Shown here piece by piece: positions 6,445 to 36,211 of a stretch of DNA of 39,653 nucleotides (position 1 is its first letter; each line of letters starts with the position of its first letter). The notes under the pieces were generated by a model. It did not search any database. It worked only from the letters and a program-made list of their open reading frames with translations, and was not told where the DNA came from. Source of the DNA: Erysipelotrichaceae bacterium OttesenSCG-928-M19 (GTDB lineage: Bacteria; Bacillota_I; Bacilli_A; JAJDGJ01); the NCBI GenBank assembly GCA_030265585.1, contig JAJDGJ010000009.1, forward strand, positions 1 to 39,653. The letters are read 5' to 3'. A program made the translations under genes and the position numbers.

Positions 6445-6806
6445 TATCTAAATATCATAAGCCATGTTCTGTTCTCTAATTTAGAGCGACAATCATTTAT
6501 CTATGTATTACTACATCCTAGTATAAGTTCATTTCCCTATAACTAAGTGCCCCTACCATAATTTGGGTTTCTCTTTTGTGGGGTTTACCTCGTTCCATTT
6601 AAAGAGTTTCCTCCTTAACTTCGTCACTGTGGCACTTTTACAGACGCCATCCCTATCGATTGACTTAGGATTTTGTTCAGCCTTCAGTATTACTACTGAC
6701 TAGATTTATTGTTTCATCTAGCACAATCACTACAAACATCGCAGTTTGTAAGAGCATGGACTTTCCTCTATAATCTAAAATTACAGCGATTGTCTCAATT
6801 TAGATA
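6445..6806 (-). ncRNA. rnpB: RNase P RNA (Firmicutes type)
   Basis: Minus strand contains GAGGAAAGTCCATGCTC near the 5' end and AGAACAGAACATGGCTTATG near the 3' end; ends pair as TATCTAAAT/ATTTAGATA (P1). Confidence 0.95.
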
Positions 6807-13002: not shown

Positions 13003-13051
13003 AAGTCTTACTAAACTTTTAGTTTTATAATATAAACAAAGGAGGATGACA

Positions 13052-14101
13052 ATGAAAAAATTAATTGAGTTAAAAAACATTTCTAAAGCATTTGATGAAA
13101 ATCAAATCTTAGAAGACTTCAACTTATATATTAATGAAAATGAATTCATAACTTTAGTAGGCCCATCAGGATGTGGAAAAACCACCTTATTAAGGATTAT
13201 TGGTGGTTTTGAAAGTGCTGATAGCGGTCAAGTTATTTTTAATAACAAAGATATTTCTCTATTGGATGCTAATGAGCGTCCTATAAATACCATCTTCCAA
13301 AAATATGCATTATTTCCTCATTTAAATGTCTATGATAATATTGCTTTTGGTTTAAAGATGAAAAAGAAAACAAAAGAAGAAATTGATGAGTTAGTCAATT
13401 GGTCATTAAAATTAGTAAACTTAGAAAAAATGAAGACACGCTCTATCGATCGTCTTTCTGGTGGGCAGCAACAGCGAATTGCTATTGCACGAGCGATTGT
13501 TAATAAACCTAAAGTATTGCTTCTTGATGAACCTCTAGGAGCTTTAGATTTAAAACTACGTCAAAATATGCAATATGAATTGAAGGAGCTTCAACAAGAT
13601 CTTGGTATTACCTTTATCTATGTAACCCATGATCAAGAGGAAGCCTTAAGTATGTCTGATACTGTAGTTGTTTTAAATGATGGAATCATCCAGCAAATTG
13701 GAACTCCTGAAGATATTTATAATGAGCCAAAAAATCGTTTTGTGGCAAATTTTATTGGTGAATCAAATATTATTAAAGGCAGATATCTAGGCAATAAATT
13801 AGTAGAATTTGAGAATACTATTTTTGAATGCGTTGATACTAATTTTGTAGTTGATGAACCATGTGATGTTGTCATAAGACCAGAAGACTTTGATGTTGTT
13901 CCTTTAAAACAGGCTAAACTTACAGGTATAATTACTGATAAAGTTTTTAAAGGAGTTCACTATGAATTTTGTATTGATATTAATGAAAAGGAATATATTG
14001 TTCATGCTTATGAAGACAAAGAAATTGGCGATCAAATTGGTTTAAGTGTTGATCCTTTTGAAATCCATTTAATGAAGGTTAACGAAAATGAAAACACGTA
14101 A
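13052..14101 (+). CDS. potA: Spermidine/putrescine ABC transporter ATP-binding protein
   Basis: [28 protein letters not shown]-like C-term; operon context. Confidence 0.95.
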
Positions 14102-14906
14102 TATTAGTTTACCACTCTATCTCATTTGGCTTTTTGTCTTAGTCTTTATTCCTTTTTTAATAATGTTATTTTTATCATTCACTAAAACTCGAGGTCTTGA
14201 TTTCTCACATTTAGTTTTTTCTTTAGATAATTTTAAAGATATCTTAGATCCTATCTATTTTGATGCTTATGTGAATTCAATTGTTCTTTCAGCAATTGCT
14301 TCTTTATTGTGTCTATTAATTGGTTATCCTGTAGCCTATATTTTAACTAACTTAAAAAGTAATAAGTTAAAGAATATCTTACTAGCAATGTTTATTTTAC
14401 CAATGTGGTCTAATATGTTACTGCGTATCATCGGGTGGGAAATACTATTTAATCCCCATAGTATTCTCAACAGTATTGGCATTAGTTTTGATTTAATTGG
14501 TAGTCCATTAGCAATCATCATTGGGATGGTCTCAACTTATTTACCATTAATGATTTTTCCAATTTATACCTCACTAAACAAACTAGAGAGCTCACTTCTT
14601 GAAGCAAGTTATGATCTAGGGGCTAGTAAGTTTCAAACTTTTAAAAGTGTTATTCTTCCACTATCTTTACCTGGTATTTATAGTGGTCTAACAATGACTT
14701 TTCTACCAAGTGCCACTAACTTTGCTTTACCAGAAAGACTAAGTGGAGGCAATATCAATCTTTTAGGAAATATCATCAATAGTAATTTTGGTAAATCATT
14801 TAATTATGGTTTTGGTAGCTTGTTATCAGTAATTTTAATAAGTGTTATTTTTGTTTTAGTCTTCTTTATCAATCGTAAAGACAAGGATGGTGATTTATTA
14901 TTATGA
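14088..14906 (+). CDS. potB: Spermidine/putrescine ABC transporter permease PotB
   Basis: BPD permease EAA-like loop ([26 protein letters not shown]); overlaps potA. Confidence 0.93.
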
Positions 14907-29562: not shown

Positions 29563-32043
29563 ATGAACAAATTCGCAAGGATACTATTTACTGCAGTCAT
29601 GTTTTTTTCCTTTGTCTTCATAAAAAGTGAATTAAACATCAACATTAACGCTGCCACACAAGGCGGAGTAGGTTATACTTTTAAGCAAACCTTCCCTGAT
29701 GAGAATATGGCAAATGGCATGGCAGCTAATTTTAATAAAACAATTGATTCAAAAATTACAACTGAAGATTGTACAGTTAGATCAATTGAATTATCAAAAA
29801 AAGGAATTACCAATTTAAGTGGCATTGAACATTTTAAAGAGATTGATTACATTAATATATCTAATAATTTTATAACTGATTTAAATCCATTATCTTCATT
29901 AACTAAGGTAACAACGGTATATGCATATAATAATAATATTAGCAATATCAAACCACTATTCTCGCTTACAAATATTGCTTTTCTTAATCTTAGTGAAAAC
30001 AATATTGTAGATATTAGTGGAATTGATAAATTGGAAAAGCTTAAAGTCTTAAATTTAGCCTACAATAAAATAACTAATATCGATGCAATTTCCAAGCTTA
30101 AAAATTTAAATAGCCTTAGTTTATATTATAATCAAATCAAAAAAATTAGTATCCCTTTTACTTCAACTGAGTTTACGAATATTAATCTAATTAATAATGA
30201 GATAGAGGATATTTCTGGCCTTGCTACTGTTGAAAAGGCAACATTATTATATTTAGGCGACAATAAGCTATCAAATATTGATGCTCTAAAAAACTTGATA
30301 AACACAAATAGAATTAACCTACAAAACAATAATCTTACTGATATAAGTTCTTTAGCAAACAAAACACAACTTACAGATCTTCATTTGGATCAAAATAAGA
30401 TTTCTGATATTACATCATTAGAAAATCTAACCCTTCTTAAGGTACTATACCTACATAATAATGAGATAACTGATATTGACAACTTATGTAATCTTGTAAA
30501 TCTTGAAATTTTATGGCTAAAAAACAACAACATTAAAGATATCTCATCTTTAAAGAATATGAATACAATGAATACTTTATATTTAGAAGATAATAAAATT
30601 GAAAACATTTCAGCATTAGAGCAAATGAAATATTTGGAAATACTTGAACTTTCTGAGAATTATATAACTGATATTAGTGTTTTAGAAAAATTGCCTAGTC
30701 TTAAAAAAATATTTTTAAATAATAATAGCATCACCAATTTTTCTACTATTTCAAAAATACCAAATTTAAACTATGTTTCACTTTCGAATCAGGGTATTCA
30801 TATACCAATTGGTAGTGTTCAAACAGGCTTTGAACATTTACTACAGGATGTTTATGATTACAATGGAAACAAATTAAAGGTTAATAGTAATGTATATTAT
30901 GGCACAATAATCGAAAAAAATACTAAAAGCTATTTTAAAATCAGTGAAAATGATCCACTAAAAAATAGATATTATTATAGTTACACTATGCCTGCTCAAA
31001 CAATTAACGGAGTAGATATTAGCTCTTTTAAGGTAGAGTTCTCATTACAAAATAAAATAGCTAATTGTGATTATATTGATAACTTTACTCTTTGTGCAAC
31101 AGATTTCACAATAAAACAATCAGAAGTAGATAATTATTCAGTTAATAGTTATCCTTGGGGTACTGGTAATGTCTATTTTGAAGAGCTGATTTATAAAAAA
31201 GGTAACTCCTCTAGTTCGGATAAACATCTTCCATTTAAAACACTTTACACTAATATGAAATCTAGTAATCTTGAAAAAAAACCTGGTATTTATCAATTAG
31301 TATTTTATTACCCTAGTTATCCCCATTTAACAAAAATTGTTAATGTTACTGTTGTAGCTGATAATACTACACCTGATAATCAAGACAATCCACCTACAAA
31401 TGGTGCCACAAAGCAAGTTAAAGCAGGTTATTCTACTTACTATTATCAATATAAAAATAATAATTGGTTTAATTATCGAACAATCTATGACAGTTCAACT
31501 CGAAAAATATTTTATTATTATGCATATGATGATAGTAAATGTAAAAGCAGTGCAGCAGTTTCACAAAATTGCGCTCGCTTAAATCAAAAAATTGATAGAC
31601 GACTATCTAAAAATAAAATAGTCAGAGAAGAGAAATGGATTTACAATGTTAAGAGCAAATTAACTCATTATTCAAAAAAAGAGTTATCTAAAAATAAGTT
31701 AATTAATACTAGAGTAATAAATAATAAATATTATAAAAACAATACTACTTTAGCACAAATTAAGGAATATTCTAAAGCGAAGAAAACAGCAAAATATACA
31801 AAAACAAGAACCAGAACTTTTAGTGCTAAAGGTCTTAAAAAGCTTGATATTACCTATAAATATAAAAAGGGTAAAAAAGCAACACGAATAGAAAAAAGAT
31901 TTAATAACAAAGGTAATACTAAAGGTAAAGCCTATTTATATAAAACATATTATAAAAAAGGTAAAGCTTATAAAACTAATAAGTACACTTACAATAAAAA
32001 AGGTAAATTATCAAAAGCAAAAAAAGTTAAAATAAGAAGATAA
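29563..32043 (+). CDS. Secreted internalin-like LRR protein with Lys/Tyr-rich basic C-terminal domain
   Basis: Signal peptide ending NININA; more than 12 LRRs (LxxLxxLxLxxNxIxDIxxL); basic C-term, no LPXTG. Confidence 0.9.
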   Translation: MNKFARILFTAVMFFSFVFIKSELNININAATQGGVGYTFKQTFPDENMANGMAANFNKTIDSKITTEDCTVRSIELSKKGITNLSGIEHFKEIDYINISNNFITDLNPLSSLTKVTTVYAYNNNISNIKPLFSLTNIAFLNLSENNIVDISGIDKLEKLKVLNLAYNKITNIDAISKLKNLNSLSLYYNQIKKISIPFTSTEFTNINLINNEIEDISGLATVEKATLLYLGDNKLSNIDALKNLINTNRINLQNNNLTDISSLANKTQLTDLHLDQNKISDITSLENLTLLKVLYLHNNEITDIDNLCNLVNLEILWLKNNNIKDISSLKNMNTMNTLYLEDNKIENISALEQMKYLEILELSENYITDISVLEKLPSLKKIFLNNNSITNFSTISKIPNLNYVSLSNQGIHIPIGSVQTGFEHLLQDVYDYNGNKLKVNSNVYYGTIIEKNTKSYFKISENDPLKNRYYYSYTMPAQTINGVDISSFKVEFSLQNKIANCDYIDNFTLCATDFTIKQSEVDNYSVNSYPWGTGNVYFEELIYKKGNSSSSDKHLPFKTLYTNMKSSNLEKKPGIYQLVFYYPSYPHLTKIVNVTVVADNTTPDNQDNPPTNGATKQVKAGYSTYYYQYKNNNWFNYRTIYDSSTRKIFYYYAYDDSKCKSSAAVSQNCARLNQKIDRRLSKNKIVREEKWIYNVKSKLTHYSKKELSKNKLINTRVINNKYYKNNTTLAQIKEYSKAKKTAKYTKTRTRTFSAKGLKKLDITYKYKKGKKATRIEKRFNNKGNTKGKAYLYKTYYKKGKAYKTNKYTYNKKGKLSKAKKVKIRR

Positions 32044-32116: not shown

Positions 32117-32146
32117 AAAAAGAGCAACTTATTAAAAAGCTGCTCT
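32117..32146 (-). terminator. Terminator of the mgl-M20 operon
   Basis: AGAGCAGCT...AGTTGCTCT then TTTT on the minus strand. Confidence 0.7.
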
Positions 32147-32162
32147 ACTAAAAACTAGTACA

Positions 32163-33332
32163 TTATTTATCTTCAAGATATTTTAAAGTCAGTTTAAGTT
32201 GCATTTCGACGGCAATGCTTAGTGCATCCTCATCAAGATCAAATTTAGGATGATGATGTTCATAAGTAGTATTTTTAGCTTCATTAGCAATTCCAACAAA
32301 ATAATAAACACCACGAATGTCTCTTAGAAACTCTGCAAAATCATCTCCAAGCATTACACTAACATTTTCAGTGATGACATTTTTTAAGCCAACAACATCA
32401 CTTGCTATCTCCTTAACTAAGCTACTCATTTCTTTATCATTGTTTAATAGTGAATTACCACATTTAAGTTCAACTTCACACTTAACTTTATAAGAGTGAG
32501 CTATAGCTTTAACTAATTCAACAAAATCATTTCTTACTTGTTCATCTTCATTATGAAGACATCTAATTGAACCTTCCATCTCTAACGTTGCTGGAATAAT
32601 CGTTGGTTTAGTACCTGCCATAATTTTACCAAATGAGATAACTGTTGGTTTTTGAGGATCATAGGCAAAACTTTGAAGTGAGTTTATTGCATTGATGATA
32701 TGAGAACTAACATCAATTGGATTAATCGCTTTATGTGGAGCACCACCATGTCCTTGTAACCCAGTTAATTTAATTCTAAAGTAATAACTTGAAGCCATAA
32801 TAGGACCTGAAACAATCCCAATTTCACCTGTTTTATGATACGACCATAAATGTAAACCAAAAACTGCATCAGGACGTGGATCTTCTAAAACACCTTCATC
32901 TATCATTAATTGAGCAGCTGCATCTTCTTCATTAGGCTGGAATACAAATTTTATTTGTCCAGAAAATTTATCGCGATATTCTGTTAATATTTTTGCAACT
33001 ATCAACATTATTGCTGCATGTCCATCATGTCCACATGCATGCATTACACCATTATTTTGCGATTTGAAGGGCAAATTAGTTTCTTCGACAACCTCTAAAG
33101 CGTCGATATCACAACGCAACATCAATGTTTTTCCTGGATACTTACCCTTTAATACTGCTACCACACCTGTTTCAAGACATTTTCTAACTTCTAAGCCTAA
33201 ACTTTCTAAATATTCAAAAATAAAACTTGCTGTTTGATACTCTTGGAGACCAAGTTCTGGGCTTTGATGAAATTGTCTTCTTAATGCGATTAATTCATCT
33301 TGATATGACTTAATTTTATTTTTAATATCCAT
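32163..33332 (-). CDS. M20-family amidohydrolase / N-acyl-amino-acid deacylase
   Basis: MHACGHDGHAAIML, FQPNEEDAAAQLMIDEGVLEDP, GLHLWSYHKTGEIG motifs. Confidence 0.93.
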   Translation of the reverse strand: MDIKNKIKSYQDELIALRRQFHQSPELGLQEYQTASFIFEYLESLGLEVRKCLETGVVAVLKGKYPGKTLMLRCDIDALEVVEETNLPFKSQNNGVMHACGHDGHAAIMLIVAKILTEYRDKFSGQIKFVFQPNEEDAAAQLMIDEGVLEDPRPDAVFGLHLWSYHKTGEIGIVSGPIMASSYYFRIKLTGLQGHGGAPHKAINPIDVSSHIINAINSLQSFAYDPQKPTVISFGKIMAGTKPTIIPATLEMEGSIRCLHNEDEQVRNDFVELVKAIAHSYKVKCEVELKCGNSLLNNDKEMSSLVKEIASDVVGLKNVITENVSVMLGDDFAEFLRDIRGVYYFVGIANEAKNTTYEHHHPKFDLDEDALSIAVEMQLKLTLKYLEDK

Positions 33333-33352
33333 TTTATTAACCCTACCTAAAT

Positions 33353-34525
33353 TTAAATTAAAGCCAATGCTTGCTCTAAATCTGCAATCAAATCATCAAC
33401 ATCTTCAACACCTACTGAAATACGTACTTGTCCTTCATAAATTTCAACAGCCTCGCGCTCTGCTAAACTCATATCAAAGTGTGACATTGAAGGTGAGTGT
33501 TGAATTAATGAATCAACATTACCTAATGAGGTAGCAAGTGAAAAGACTTTAACATTATTTAATACAGTACGCACTGCATCAACACCACCAATAATATCAG
33601 CCGACATCATCCCACTGAAACCTCTCATTTGTTTTTTTGCAATGTCATGGCTTTTATGAGTGGCTAGACCTGGATAGTATACTTTACTTATTTTTGGATG
33701 AGCAGCTAAATATTCAGCTACCTTCATGGCATTTTCACAATGTCTCTCCATTCTGATTGCTAATGTTTTTAAGCCTTGCATTAATTGCCAGGCTCCAAAT
33801 GGATCTAAAACTGCTCCAAAACATTGTAGATAGGGCATTCTTAATATATCCATATCCTTTTTACACCCTGCAACAACACCAGCTGTAACATTACCATGAC
33901 CACCAATATATTTTGTTGCTGAATGAACGACTAGATCAGCACCAAGTTGTAATGGATTTTGTAAATAAGGTGAAGCAAAGGTACTATCGACAACTAATTT
34001 TATCTCATTTCTTTGGTGAACAACTTTAGCAATCTCTTCAATATCAGATATTTTTAAAGTTGGATTAGCTGGTGTTTCAACATAAACAACCTTGGTGTTT
34101 TCCTTAATTGCTGCTGCTACTGCATTCACATCTGTTGTATCAACTATAGTATACTCGATCCCATAATTTGGAAAAATTTTTGTAAACAAGGCAAAAGTAC
34201 AGCCATAGATGACATCACCAAATATCAAATGATCTCCAGCTTTTAACTGTGCCATCACTGCCATTGAGATTGCTCCTAGTCCTGAAGCAAAAGCAATTGC
34301 ATCTTCAGCACCCTCAAGATATGCAATTTTTTCTTCAAATTCTCTTACAGTTGGACTACCAAATCTTGTGTAAACAAATCCCTCATCAACATGTTGATTA
34401 AGATAAACGGCAGTATCAAAATCAGGTAAAACAAAAGTTGATGTTTGATAAATTGGACTAACGTGACTCCCGTGAACCGGATCATGAAATTGCTTTGCAT
34501 GAATTACCGCTGTATTTCTTTTCAT
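33353..34525 (-). CDS. Cys/Met-metabolism PLP enzyme, most like methionine gamma-lyase
   Basis: PLP Lys motif VVHSATKYIGGHGNVTAG; YGCTFALF Cys as in methionine gamma-lyases; SLGNVDSLIQHSPSMSH. Confidence 0.88.
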   Translation of the reverse strand: MKRNTAVIHAKQFHDPVHGSHVSPIYQTSTFVLPDFDTAVYLNQHVDEGFVYTRFGSPTVREFEEKIAYLEGAEDAIAFASGLGAISMAVMAQLKAGDHLIFGDVIYGCTFALFTKIFPNYGIEYTIVDTTDVNAVAAAIKENTKVVYVETPANPTLKISDIEEIAKVVHQRNEIKLVVDSTFASPYLQNPLQLGADLVVHSATKYIGGHGNVTAGVVAGCKKDMDILRMPYLQCFGAVLDPFGAWQLMQGLKTLAIRMERHCENAMKVAEYLAAHPKISKVYYPGLATHKSHDIAKKQMRGFSGMMSADIIGGVDAVRTVLNNVKVFSLATSLGNVDSLIQHSPSMSHFDMSLAEREAVEIYEGQVRISVGVEDVDDLIADLEQALALI

Positions 34526-34593
34526 AAAAATAACCTCCTCGATTGACTATTTTATTTATATTTATGATATAATTATCAAAACCATTCAACAAC

Positions 34594-34634
34594 ATACAAA
34601 TTGTATATCAATTGTTTATTATTTCTATACAATT
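34594..34634. promoter_or_regulatory. Candidate PucR operator in divergent intergenic region
   Basis: ATACAA-A-TTGTAT palindrome (34594-34606) plus perfect AATTGTATA (34599-34607)/TATACAATT (34626-34634) inverted repeat. Confidence 0.5.
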
Positions 34635-34651
34635 AGTCTAGGAGGTGCCTT

Positions 34652-36211
34652 ATGTTTAGTGTTAAAGATTTTGTAAACTTAAAAGAAATTAATACTGCAA
34701 ATGTTTTGACTTGCATCAATATTCTTAATCAATATCCAATTGAATATATTGCTGTTATTGAAACACCTGTTGATAATTTTGTTCGTAAAAATGAGCTAGT
34801 TTTAACAACGGCTAAAGGTTGTGATACTGATACTACACTATTCAATTATTTGAATGATATCTATAATTCTGAAGCAGCAGCTGCTGTCATTGCTCGCCCT
34901 AATAATGATTTAATGCTATCAAAAAAAACAATAACATACTTTGAAGAAAGAAAATTTCCGATTATTATTATTCCTTGGGAAATTCGTTTTTCAGATTTAT
35001 TGGAAATTGTTTTTAAAAAGATTAGAGATAATACATTATTAGAAATAAATTTCTATGAGGAAATTCAAAGCACACTGCTTAAAAGTTATTTAAATAATGA
35101 AGACCTTTTACAAGCAACTAATATTCTTTCCCAGAATTTTAAATGTGATGTTGCAATCTTAGATATAAATTTTGAATTGCGTGGCTATTCTAATCCCAAG
35201 TTTTTAAACTATTATAACTGGCCTGCCTTAAATTTAATAAGTATTGATAGTAATGAACAAAATTATGGTTATATCTTTTTTTTGTTGAATGATGACTCAC
35301 ATCACTACAATAGTTCACTTATACAACGTTATATTATTAATTGTCTAACCTTATGGTTTGATCGTGAATGGATGATTTATGCTACTCATCAAAATGCAAA
35401 AGATAATTTTGTCACTAAATTAACCCAGGAAAACCTAAAGTCATCAAAATCATTAGATTCTCATGCTTTACTACTTGGTTTCAATCTTAATCTTCCTTAC
35501 ACTTGTCTTGTTGGAAAACTAATTAATACCAATATTGAAAAACATGTTAATCTAGATGATTGGATCTATGATAAATGGTTAAGTGTTCAGGAGCTAATAA
35601 TAAACACTGCTAGAAAAATCCATTTAAAAGTTATGTTTACATATCATGATAACGTACTAATCATTTATTTAGAAAATAGCAAAATCAATAGTGAACAAAA
35701 AATTACTGCTTTTTTAAATGACTTTGAAAGTTTTTTCAAAGTTAATTATCCTGATGTTTTATTCAGTTGGGGTATCAGCAATATTAATGATGATTTATAT
35801 ACTTTTAAAGACAAGTATGAAAATGCTAAGTTAGCTCAAAAACTATGCGAAAACAATAAAGGACAAATAACTAGATTCACTTATGAAAGTACTATCACCT
35901 ATCATTTAATAAATAGCCTTTATCAAAATGAAAATGTTAGTGATGATCTCTATAATTTAATTGCCCCTTTAGTTGATTATGATAGTAGTTATGGTTTAGA
36001 GTTAATGAAGACCTTAAAAATTTATTTACAGACAAGAAATGCTTCACAAACAGCTCAACAACTTCATCTGCATCGCCAATCATTATTATATCGCTTAAAT
36101 AAAATAGAACAATTAATTAAGCTTTCTTTAAAAGACTATAATAATATCTTCTTACTTGAAATGGCTTTACGCTTACATTATGATTATCTTGACAAAGAGA
36201 TGGCTAGCTAG
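34652..36211 (+). CDS. PucR-family transcriptional regulator
   Basis: PucR N-terminal domain (MFSVKDFVNLKEINTANVL...) and C-terminal HTH_30 (YLQTRNASQTAQQLHLHRQSLLYRLNKIEQL). Confidence 0.9.
   Translation: MFSVKDFVNLKEINTANVLTCINILNQYPIEYIAVIETPVDNFVRKNELVLTTAKGCDTDTTLFNYLNDIYNSEAAAAVIARPNNDLMLSKKTITYFEERKFPIIIIPWEIRFSDLLEIVFKKIRDNTLLEINFYEEIQSTLLKSYLNNEDLLQATNILSQNFKCDVAILDINFELRGYSNPKFLNYYNWPALNLISIDSNEQNYGYIFFLLNDDSHHYNSSLIQRYIINCLTLWFDREWMIYATHQNAKDNFVTKLTQENLKSSKSLDSHALLLGFNLNLPYTCLVGKLINTNIEKHVNLDDWIYDKWLSVQELIINTARKIHLKVMFTYHDNVLIIYLENSKINSEQKITAFLNDFESFFKVNYPDVLFSWGISNINDDLYTFKDKYENAKLAQKLCENNKGQITRFTYESTITYHLINSLYQNENVSDDLYNLIAPLVDYDSSYGLELMKTLKIYLQTRNASQTAQQLHLHRQSLLYRLNKIEQLIKLSLKDYNNIFLLEMALRLHYDYLDKEMAS

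Follow-up and report, generated by a model that had tools for sequence, protein, structure and literature searches.

What is degraded by an enzyme that resembles methionine gamma-lyase (MGL) and depends on pyridoxal 5'-phosphate (PLP), when its gene precedes that of an M20 amidohydrolase and diverges from that of a PucR-family regulator? This question is raised by positions 32,163 to 36,211 of contig JAJDGJ010000009.1 from Erysipelotrichaceae bacterium OttesenSCG-928-M19 (assembly GCA_030265585.1), the whole stretch of 39,653 nucleotides that was analysed being referred to here as the window and its genome being a metagenome-assembled genome that is 62% complete. The initial annotation described the arrangement faithfully, as all three genes are borne out by their coordinates and by Pfam/NCBIfam matches, and so is the spacing of 20 bp between the PLP and M20 genes. 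As to function, the reading put forward here, with a probability of roughly 0.55, is that of a PucR-controlled two-gene cassette for the breakdown of N-acyl-2,4-diaminobutyrate. It is quite probable that both genes belong to lineages linked to the use of ectoine, and, judged by its sequences, the cassette appears to share its ancestry with the operons that anaerobic and halophilic Bacillota use for ectoine catabolism, where the ectoine hydrolase DoeA is found. The three genes are as follows.

32163-33332, minus strand: M20 amidohydrolase (389 aa; PF01546 and PF07687), proposed N-acyl-diaminobutyrate deacylase, inside an M20 clade with 100/100 support, the loci of which are linked either to DoeA or to the PLP clade.
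33353-34525, minus strand: MGL-like PLP enzyme of the Cys/Met metabolism fold (390 aa; PF01053, E 5e-143), proposed 2,4-diaminobutyrate gamma-lyase, below the TIGR01328 cut-off, in a 100/100 clade with DoeA in the cluster at 8 of its loci.
34652-36211, plus strand: PucR-family regulator, divergent (519 aa; PF07905, PF17853 and PF13556), with homologues adjoining the PLP clade elsewhere.

The fold of the PLP enzyme is clear from 94 PDB sequence matches and, by its sequence, the enzyme can be assigned to a discrete, fully supported clade. A search of genome contigs retrieved clade members 60-75% identical to it, the next matches reaching 51% at most, and a later whole-genome search returned nothing between 52% and the clade. 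In a maximum-likelihood tree, the window enzyme and 35 clade sequences are grouped with 100/100 support on a long stem, the deepest branches of the clade being the DoeA-adjacent members and the window enzyme being the sister of a mostly gut/rumen group, itself mostly devoid of DoeA; by identity, its nearest relatives (75%) are the PLP enzymes of loci L020 and L025. Clade-wide and nearly invariant replacements are observed at conserved MGL positions, namely HPASMTHS to HSPSMSHFD and AVSLGD to ATSLGN, the YGC motif being retained.

Regarding genomic context, DoeA (DoeA/EutD) lies in the cluster in 8 clade loci from five lineages, and these operons usually include an M20 of the window's lineage along with PucR and an ectoine-type tripartite ATP-independent periplasmic (TRAP) transporter, some of them also RidA, acetate kinase (Ack) or a 2-oxoacid:ferredoxin oxidoreductase (POR). 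The gene order is PucR (divergent), PLP, M20, DoeA, DctQ, DctM and DctP in L020/L025; PLP, PucR, EutB, DoeA and EutC in Sporolactobacillus (L022/L023), with M20 just downstream (G062:C12:26544); PucR, PLP, M20, DoeA, one further gene and RidA in Alkalibacterium (L033/L037), acetate kinase preceding RidA in L033; Pta, DoeA, GntR, PLP, M20, TRAP and POR-gamma in Halanaerobium congolense (L048); and PLP, PucR, M20, TRAP, DoeA and a second M20 in Clostridium bovifaecis (L051/L122). Since the PLP-M20 order recurs in distant genomes, the pairing is not due to chance. The best solved relative of the DoeA-like protein of L020/L025 is the ectoine hydrolase DoeA (6twk/6twj, E 1e-111), and the top solved relatives of DctP are 4pfi, then 3gyy, 2vpn and 3fxb, the last two being ectoine-bound structures, of TeaA (2VPN) and UehA (3FXB) respectively (PMC5924519). 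Relatives of both window genes are found alongside ectoine hydrolase, TeaA/UehA-related TRAP transporters and EutB/EutC; EutB/EutC/EutA-type genes occur in some clade loci, most DoeA-adjacent loci being without EutB/EutC in the stretch read. No sulfur genes were seen among the annotated neighbours of the relatives and, as a control, 48 loci of ordinary relatives of MGL and cystathionine gamma-synthase from the same search had neither PucR nor M20 homologues nor DoeA nearby.

Two features of these operons can be recorded in passing. In Sporolactobacillus, a second and more distant MGL-family gene (43% identical to the window enzyme) stands directly after EutC (L022:12345-13170, L023:12337-13170). 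In Alkalibacterium, two families are conserved beside the operon (L033:9899-11086/L037:7733-8881 and L033:1802-3058/L037:818-2071), and the L033 copies of both matched no Pfam family.

The second gene of the cassette leads in the same direction. The window M20 protein bears the motif HACGHDGH, is related to YxeP and N-acyl-glutamine aminoacylase, and has its nearest homologue, 58% identical, in Lachnospiraceae NSJ-143 (G066). In a tree of M20 proteins from these genomes, it is placed with 100/100 support in a clade of 23 sequences, every one of which stems from a locus with a link to the PLP clade or to DoeA (a single row marked as unlinked duplicates a linked sequence). The remaining 33 rows, for the most part paralogues in these same genomes, branch outside; the comparison is limited in that these outside paralogues were the best-scoring portion of a longer match list. 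On this tree, the window M20 appears to belong to a deacetylase lineage linked to DoeA. Two labels were not used as its identity, i.e. CpsA (NCBIfam, 382 bits for a cut-off of 500) and DoeB2, the N(2)-acetyl-L-2,4-diaminobutanoate deacetylase (NF038260, 271.2 bits for a cut-off of 550). DoeB2 has the M20 fold and catalyses the reaction proposed for the window enzyme, but the window protein represents a separate lineage, its DoeA-adjacent relatives also scoring only 265-284 bits.

The known pathway begins with the opening of ectoine by DoeA, which yields N-alpha-acetyl-2,4-diaminobutyrate; this is deacetylated to 2,4-diaminobutyrate (DABA), transaminated to aspartate semialdehyde and oxidised (PMC5924519). 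Compared with ectoine catabolism in Proteobacteria (DoeABCD/EutDE-Ssd-Atf, UehABC/TeaABC), the operons of the relatives share the ectoine hydrolase and the ectoine-type TRAP transporter, and a step of N-acetyl-DABA deacetylation is expected in both; they differ in having M20 for EutE, the MGL-like PLP enzyme for the transaminase and dehydrogenase, and PucR for EnuR, whereas the window itself holds only PucR, PLP and M20. In the proposed mechanism, M20 would strip the acyl (acetyl) group to give free L-2,4-diaminobutyrate, from which the PLP enzyme would remove ammonia by gamma-elimination; the resulting 2-iminobutyrate would hydrolyse to 2-oxobutyrate and a second ammonia, so that the PLP route would stand in for the DoeD/DoeC transaminase/dehydrogenase route of Proteobacteria, and 2-oxobutyrate could then be fermented to propionate with a gain of ATP. 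Gamma-elimination is proposed because the chemistry of this PLP family consists mostly of gamma- and beta-elimination and replacement. RidA, for its part, hydrolyses 2-iminobutyrate. The RidA, acetate kinase, Pta and POR genes in the loci of relatives would fit an imine/2-oxobutyrate product, RidA, 2-oxoacid:ferredoxin oxidoreductase, Pta and Ack being what the fermentation of 2-oxobutyrate to propionate needs. We infer the substrate, the reaction, the ligand of PucR and the retention of this role by the window enzymes. The wider proposal is more tentative and carries slightly less than even odds: the PLP clade would be a new C-N gamma-lyase (DABA to 2-oxobutyrate and 2 NH3) which, together with the distinct M20 deacetylase lineage and PucR, would provide anaerobic Bacillota, gut lineages included, with an oxygen-independent route from ectoine or N-acetyl-DABA to propionate and ATP.

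The association with DoeA can also be counted genome by genome. At E<=1e-60, DoeA was detected in 10 of the 24 clade genomes, in none of the 392 genomes from the phylum of the window, and, in a Clostridia-type sample of 46 genomes, in 5, two of these being clade genomes (3 of 44 once clade genomes are set aside); the Fisher p values, about 5e-14 against the phylum and about 9e-4 against the Clostridia-type sample, ignore relatedness and serve as a guide only. A less circular check is offered by three genomes found through DoeA alone (G437, G431 and G432), in the first of which a PLP gene of the clade immediately precedes a linked M20. The cluster of PucR, M20, TRAP and DoeA in G437 (L118, 679-18999) is flanked by two more M20 proteins, a PALP (fold-type-II PLP enzyme), a DcuC carrier, a sigma-54 activator and an alanine racemase.

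Several observations weigh against the diaminobutyrate reading. In G431 and G432, DoeA is present and the PLP clade absent, their ectoine-type clusters (L116, L117) comprising three POR subunits, a glutamate dehydrogenase, M20, DoeA, TRAP and an arylmalonate-decarboxylase-like (EutA-like) gene. Because M20 is kept in these two genomes, its link with DoeA is stricter than that of the PLP enzyme, and the last step may be left to a different enzyme in some genomes. A DoeD-type transaminase may offer another DABA route in several genomes, where aminotransferases scored below the TIGR00709 cut-off; in favour of the diaminobutyrate reading, no DABA-transaminase-like match was obtained at E<=1e-40 in the two Alkalibacterium genomes. 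All DoeA-like proteins of the clade genomes fall below the strict cut-off of TIGR02993, that of L020/L025 reaching 447 for 613. In the 62% complete genome of the window, there was no TIGR02993 match for DoeA, and no DctM of a TRAP transporter, the one transporter type searched, was found; the natural substrate of the window enzymes is uncertain for this reason. Most of the gut/rumen clade members are likewise without DoeA, and they adjoin AgcS, Alr or BrnQ genes, so that the substrate may differ there. Finally, the elimination of ammonia from DABA by an enzyme of this fold is itself deduced from context.

Some of these points bear on an explanation that keeps the chemistry, i.e. deacylation followed by PLP-dependent elimination, and changes the source of the N-acyl amino acid, for instance DABA from peptides or the gamma-substituted canavanine in place of an ectoine derivative. 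With about one chance in four, it is the alternative that survives best: the position of the window enzyme as sister to a mostly gut/rumen, mostly DoeA-less group means that N-acyl-DABA or an amino acid related to it may be supplied to the cassette from another source, and the AgcS and BrnQ carriers and the alanine racemase beside gut members, along with the lack of DoeA and TRAP in the available window genome, are in keeping with it. On the other hand, the residues around the examined motifs are nearly unchanged between DoeA-adjacent and gut members, which suggests a single substrate. Besides, Lachnospiraceae NSJ-143 has its PLP-M20 pair followed by a branched-chain amino acid carrier and, on a separate contig, a cluster of DoeA, TRAP, two M20s and EutB, which shows that DoeA can lie at a distance from the pair, as could apply to the window too.

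Less well placed is the substrate class favoured by the initial annotation, namely N-acyl-cysteine S-conjugates or N-acyl-methionine, from which a C-S lyase and an M20 deacylase would release thiols after induction. The succession of deacylation and PLP-dependent elimination fits; the sulfur part (mercapturates, methionine, thiols) found no support. The relatedness of M20 to aminoacylases would suit it, and the PLP enzyme shares with MGL (TIGR01328; PDB 7bqw, 5dx5) the fold, the PLP lysine segment (SATK with K205 in the window enzyme), the YGC(T/S) motif and about 50% of residues, and elimination chemistry is expected of both. The motif YGCTFALF is indeed present from residue 107, and its active-site Cys, C116 in P. 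putida MGL numbering, is common to the whole clade and to true MGLs, so that the residue invoked in favour of a sulfur substrate does not discriminate. Conversely, the enzyme scores 467.8 bits on the MGL equivalog model TIGR01328 for a cut-off of 549.7, and the Lys-Asp motif of MGLs, K240-D241 in P. putida numbering, is replaced, KD(M/I/L)TG giving way to Q(C/T)(F/L)-G in the clade and to QCF-GA in the window:

33809-33826, minus strand: QCFGAV segment, residues 234-239 of the PLP enzyme, where true MGLs have KD(M/I/L)TGAV.

A second PF01053 enzyme of the same genome (L002, G000:C55:1222-2367) appears to be the better candidate for the methionine gamma-lyase of this organism since it scores 570.1 bits, above the cut-off, and contains the KD motif. 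Moreover, the gene context of the PLP clade is repeatedly that of ectoine and not of sulfur. By its score, motif, paralogue and context, methionine salvage or mercapturate C-S cleavage is thus ruled out as leading reading, and looks improbable, at well under one chance in five. Lastly, action of the PLP enzyme elsewhere in the use of ectoine or hydroxyectoine, either on 3-hydroxy-DABA, as the EutB/EutC/EutA-type genes of some loci would allow, or as a racemase, as its match to NF041088 and the racemases of the wider PLP family would allow, is very improbable, since most DoeA-adjacent loci lack EutB/EutC, which makes a hydroxylated substrate no common denominator, and RidA, Ack and POR are in keeping with an imine/2-oxoacid product.

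To return to the diaminobutyrate reading, its nearest published counterparts are found in a 2026 survey, the main text of which describes predicted ectoine clusters of Bacilli and Clostridia that include PucR and the amidohydrolase abgB and lack eutE, terms them provisional, and regards ectoine catabolism as experimentally validated only in a few Proteobacteria (PMC13188858). Those putative clusters (pucR-eutBCD-atf-abgB-thrA-adh-eutD) resemble the present loci by PucR beside an amidohydrolase and EutD, with no EutE; unlike them, they carry atf, thrA and adh, and the main text names no MGL-like enzyme, the words lyase and cystathionine being absent from it, although the figures, outside that check, may show the gene as a grey arrow (PMC13188858). 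Nothing relevant on a DABA gamma-lyase or on anaerobic ectoine degradation was found in the literature, most subscription papers lying outside the search, and the gamma-lyase specificity is probably new. This analysis offers a testable two-enzyme lower pathway as well as a candidate enzyme for the PLP-dependent removal of ammonia from diaminobutyrate by gamma-elimination. There is also a warning for annotation: a number of gut and rumen genomes carry genes labelled methionine gamma-lyase that may be unrelated to sulfur, and surveys of methioninases, like predictions of methanethiol formation, would be affected by this.

As for regulation, PucR exceeds the Pfam gathering scores with 63.6 bits for PF07905 and 63.3 bits for PF13556, and its homologues adjoin the PLP clade in most of those clade loci whose sequence extends far enough, a conserved neighbourhood that argues for co-regulation; the gene arrangement suggests that PucR would control the PLP-M20 operon. 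Two further features belong here.

34526-34651, no strand: divergent intergenic region between the PLP and PucR genes (126 bp), with an imperfect inverted repeat at 34596-34637 and a weak TGTATGTTG-like candidate operator.
32121-32146, minus strand: terminator-like hairpin directly 3' of the M20 gene (32146-32121).

A TGTAWGTTG-like motif and a TATCAT-like -10 element recur upstream of the PLP gene. In the window, the candidate operator is weak, 23 of 1000 shuffles scoring as high for a motif chosen post hoc, and a conserved PucR operator was not retained on these grounds. Given the short PLP-M20 gap and the hairpin after M20, the operon probably consists of just these two genes; shuffled sequence yields hairpins of this kind at least as often as the region does, and it is only its position that supports this one as a terminator. 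The GC content of the PLP gene is 0.359, compared with 0.26-0.34 for the other sampled window genes. In three genomes of the same genus or family (G001-G003), the best full-length PLP relatives are 42-49% identical and no PucR match was found, so that the cassette would have been gained in the lineage of the window or lost in its relatives.

On either side, the cassette is flanked by an internalin-like leucine-rich-repeat gene and by rpsD, both of which look unrelated to it. The former (29563-32043, plus strand) encodes a secreted protein of 826 aa with a lysine-rich C-terminal repeat region. Elsewhere in the window, an RNase P class B RNA is located at 6453-6801 on the minus strand (284.5 bits), and a PotA/PotB-like ATPase and permease of a spermidine/putrescine-type ABC transporter at 13046-14906 on the plus strand, with further tandem open reading frames up to 16760.

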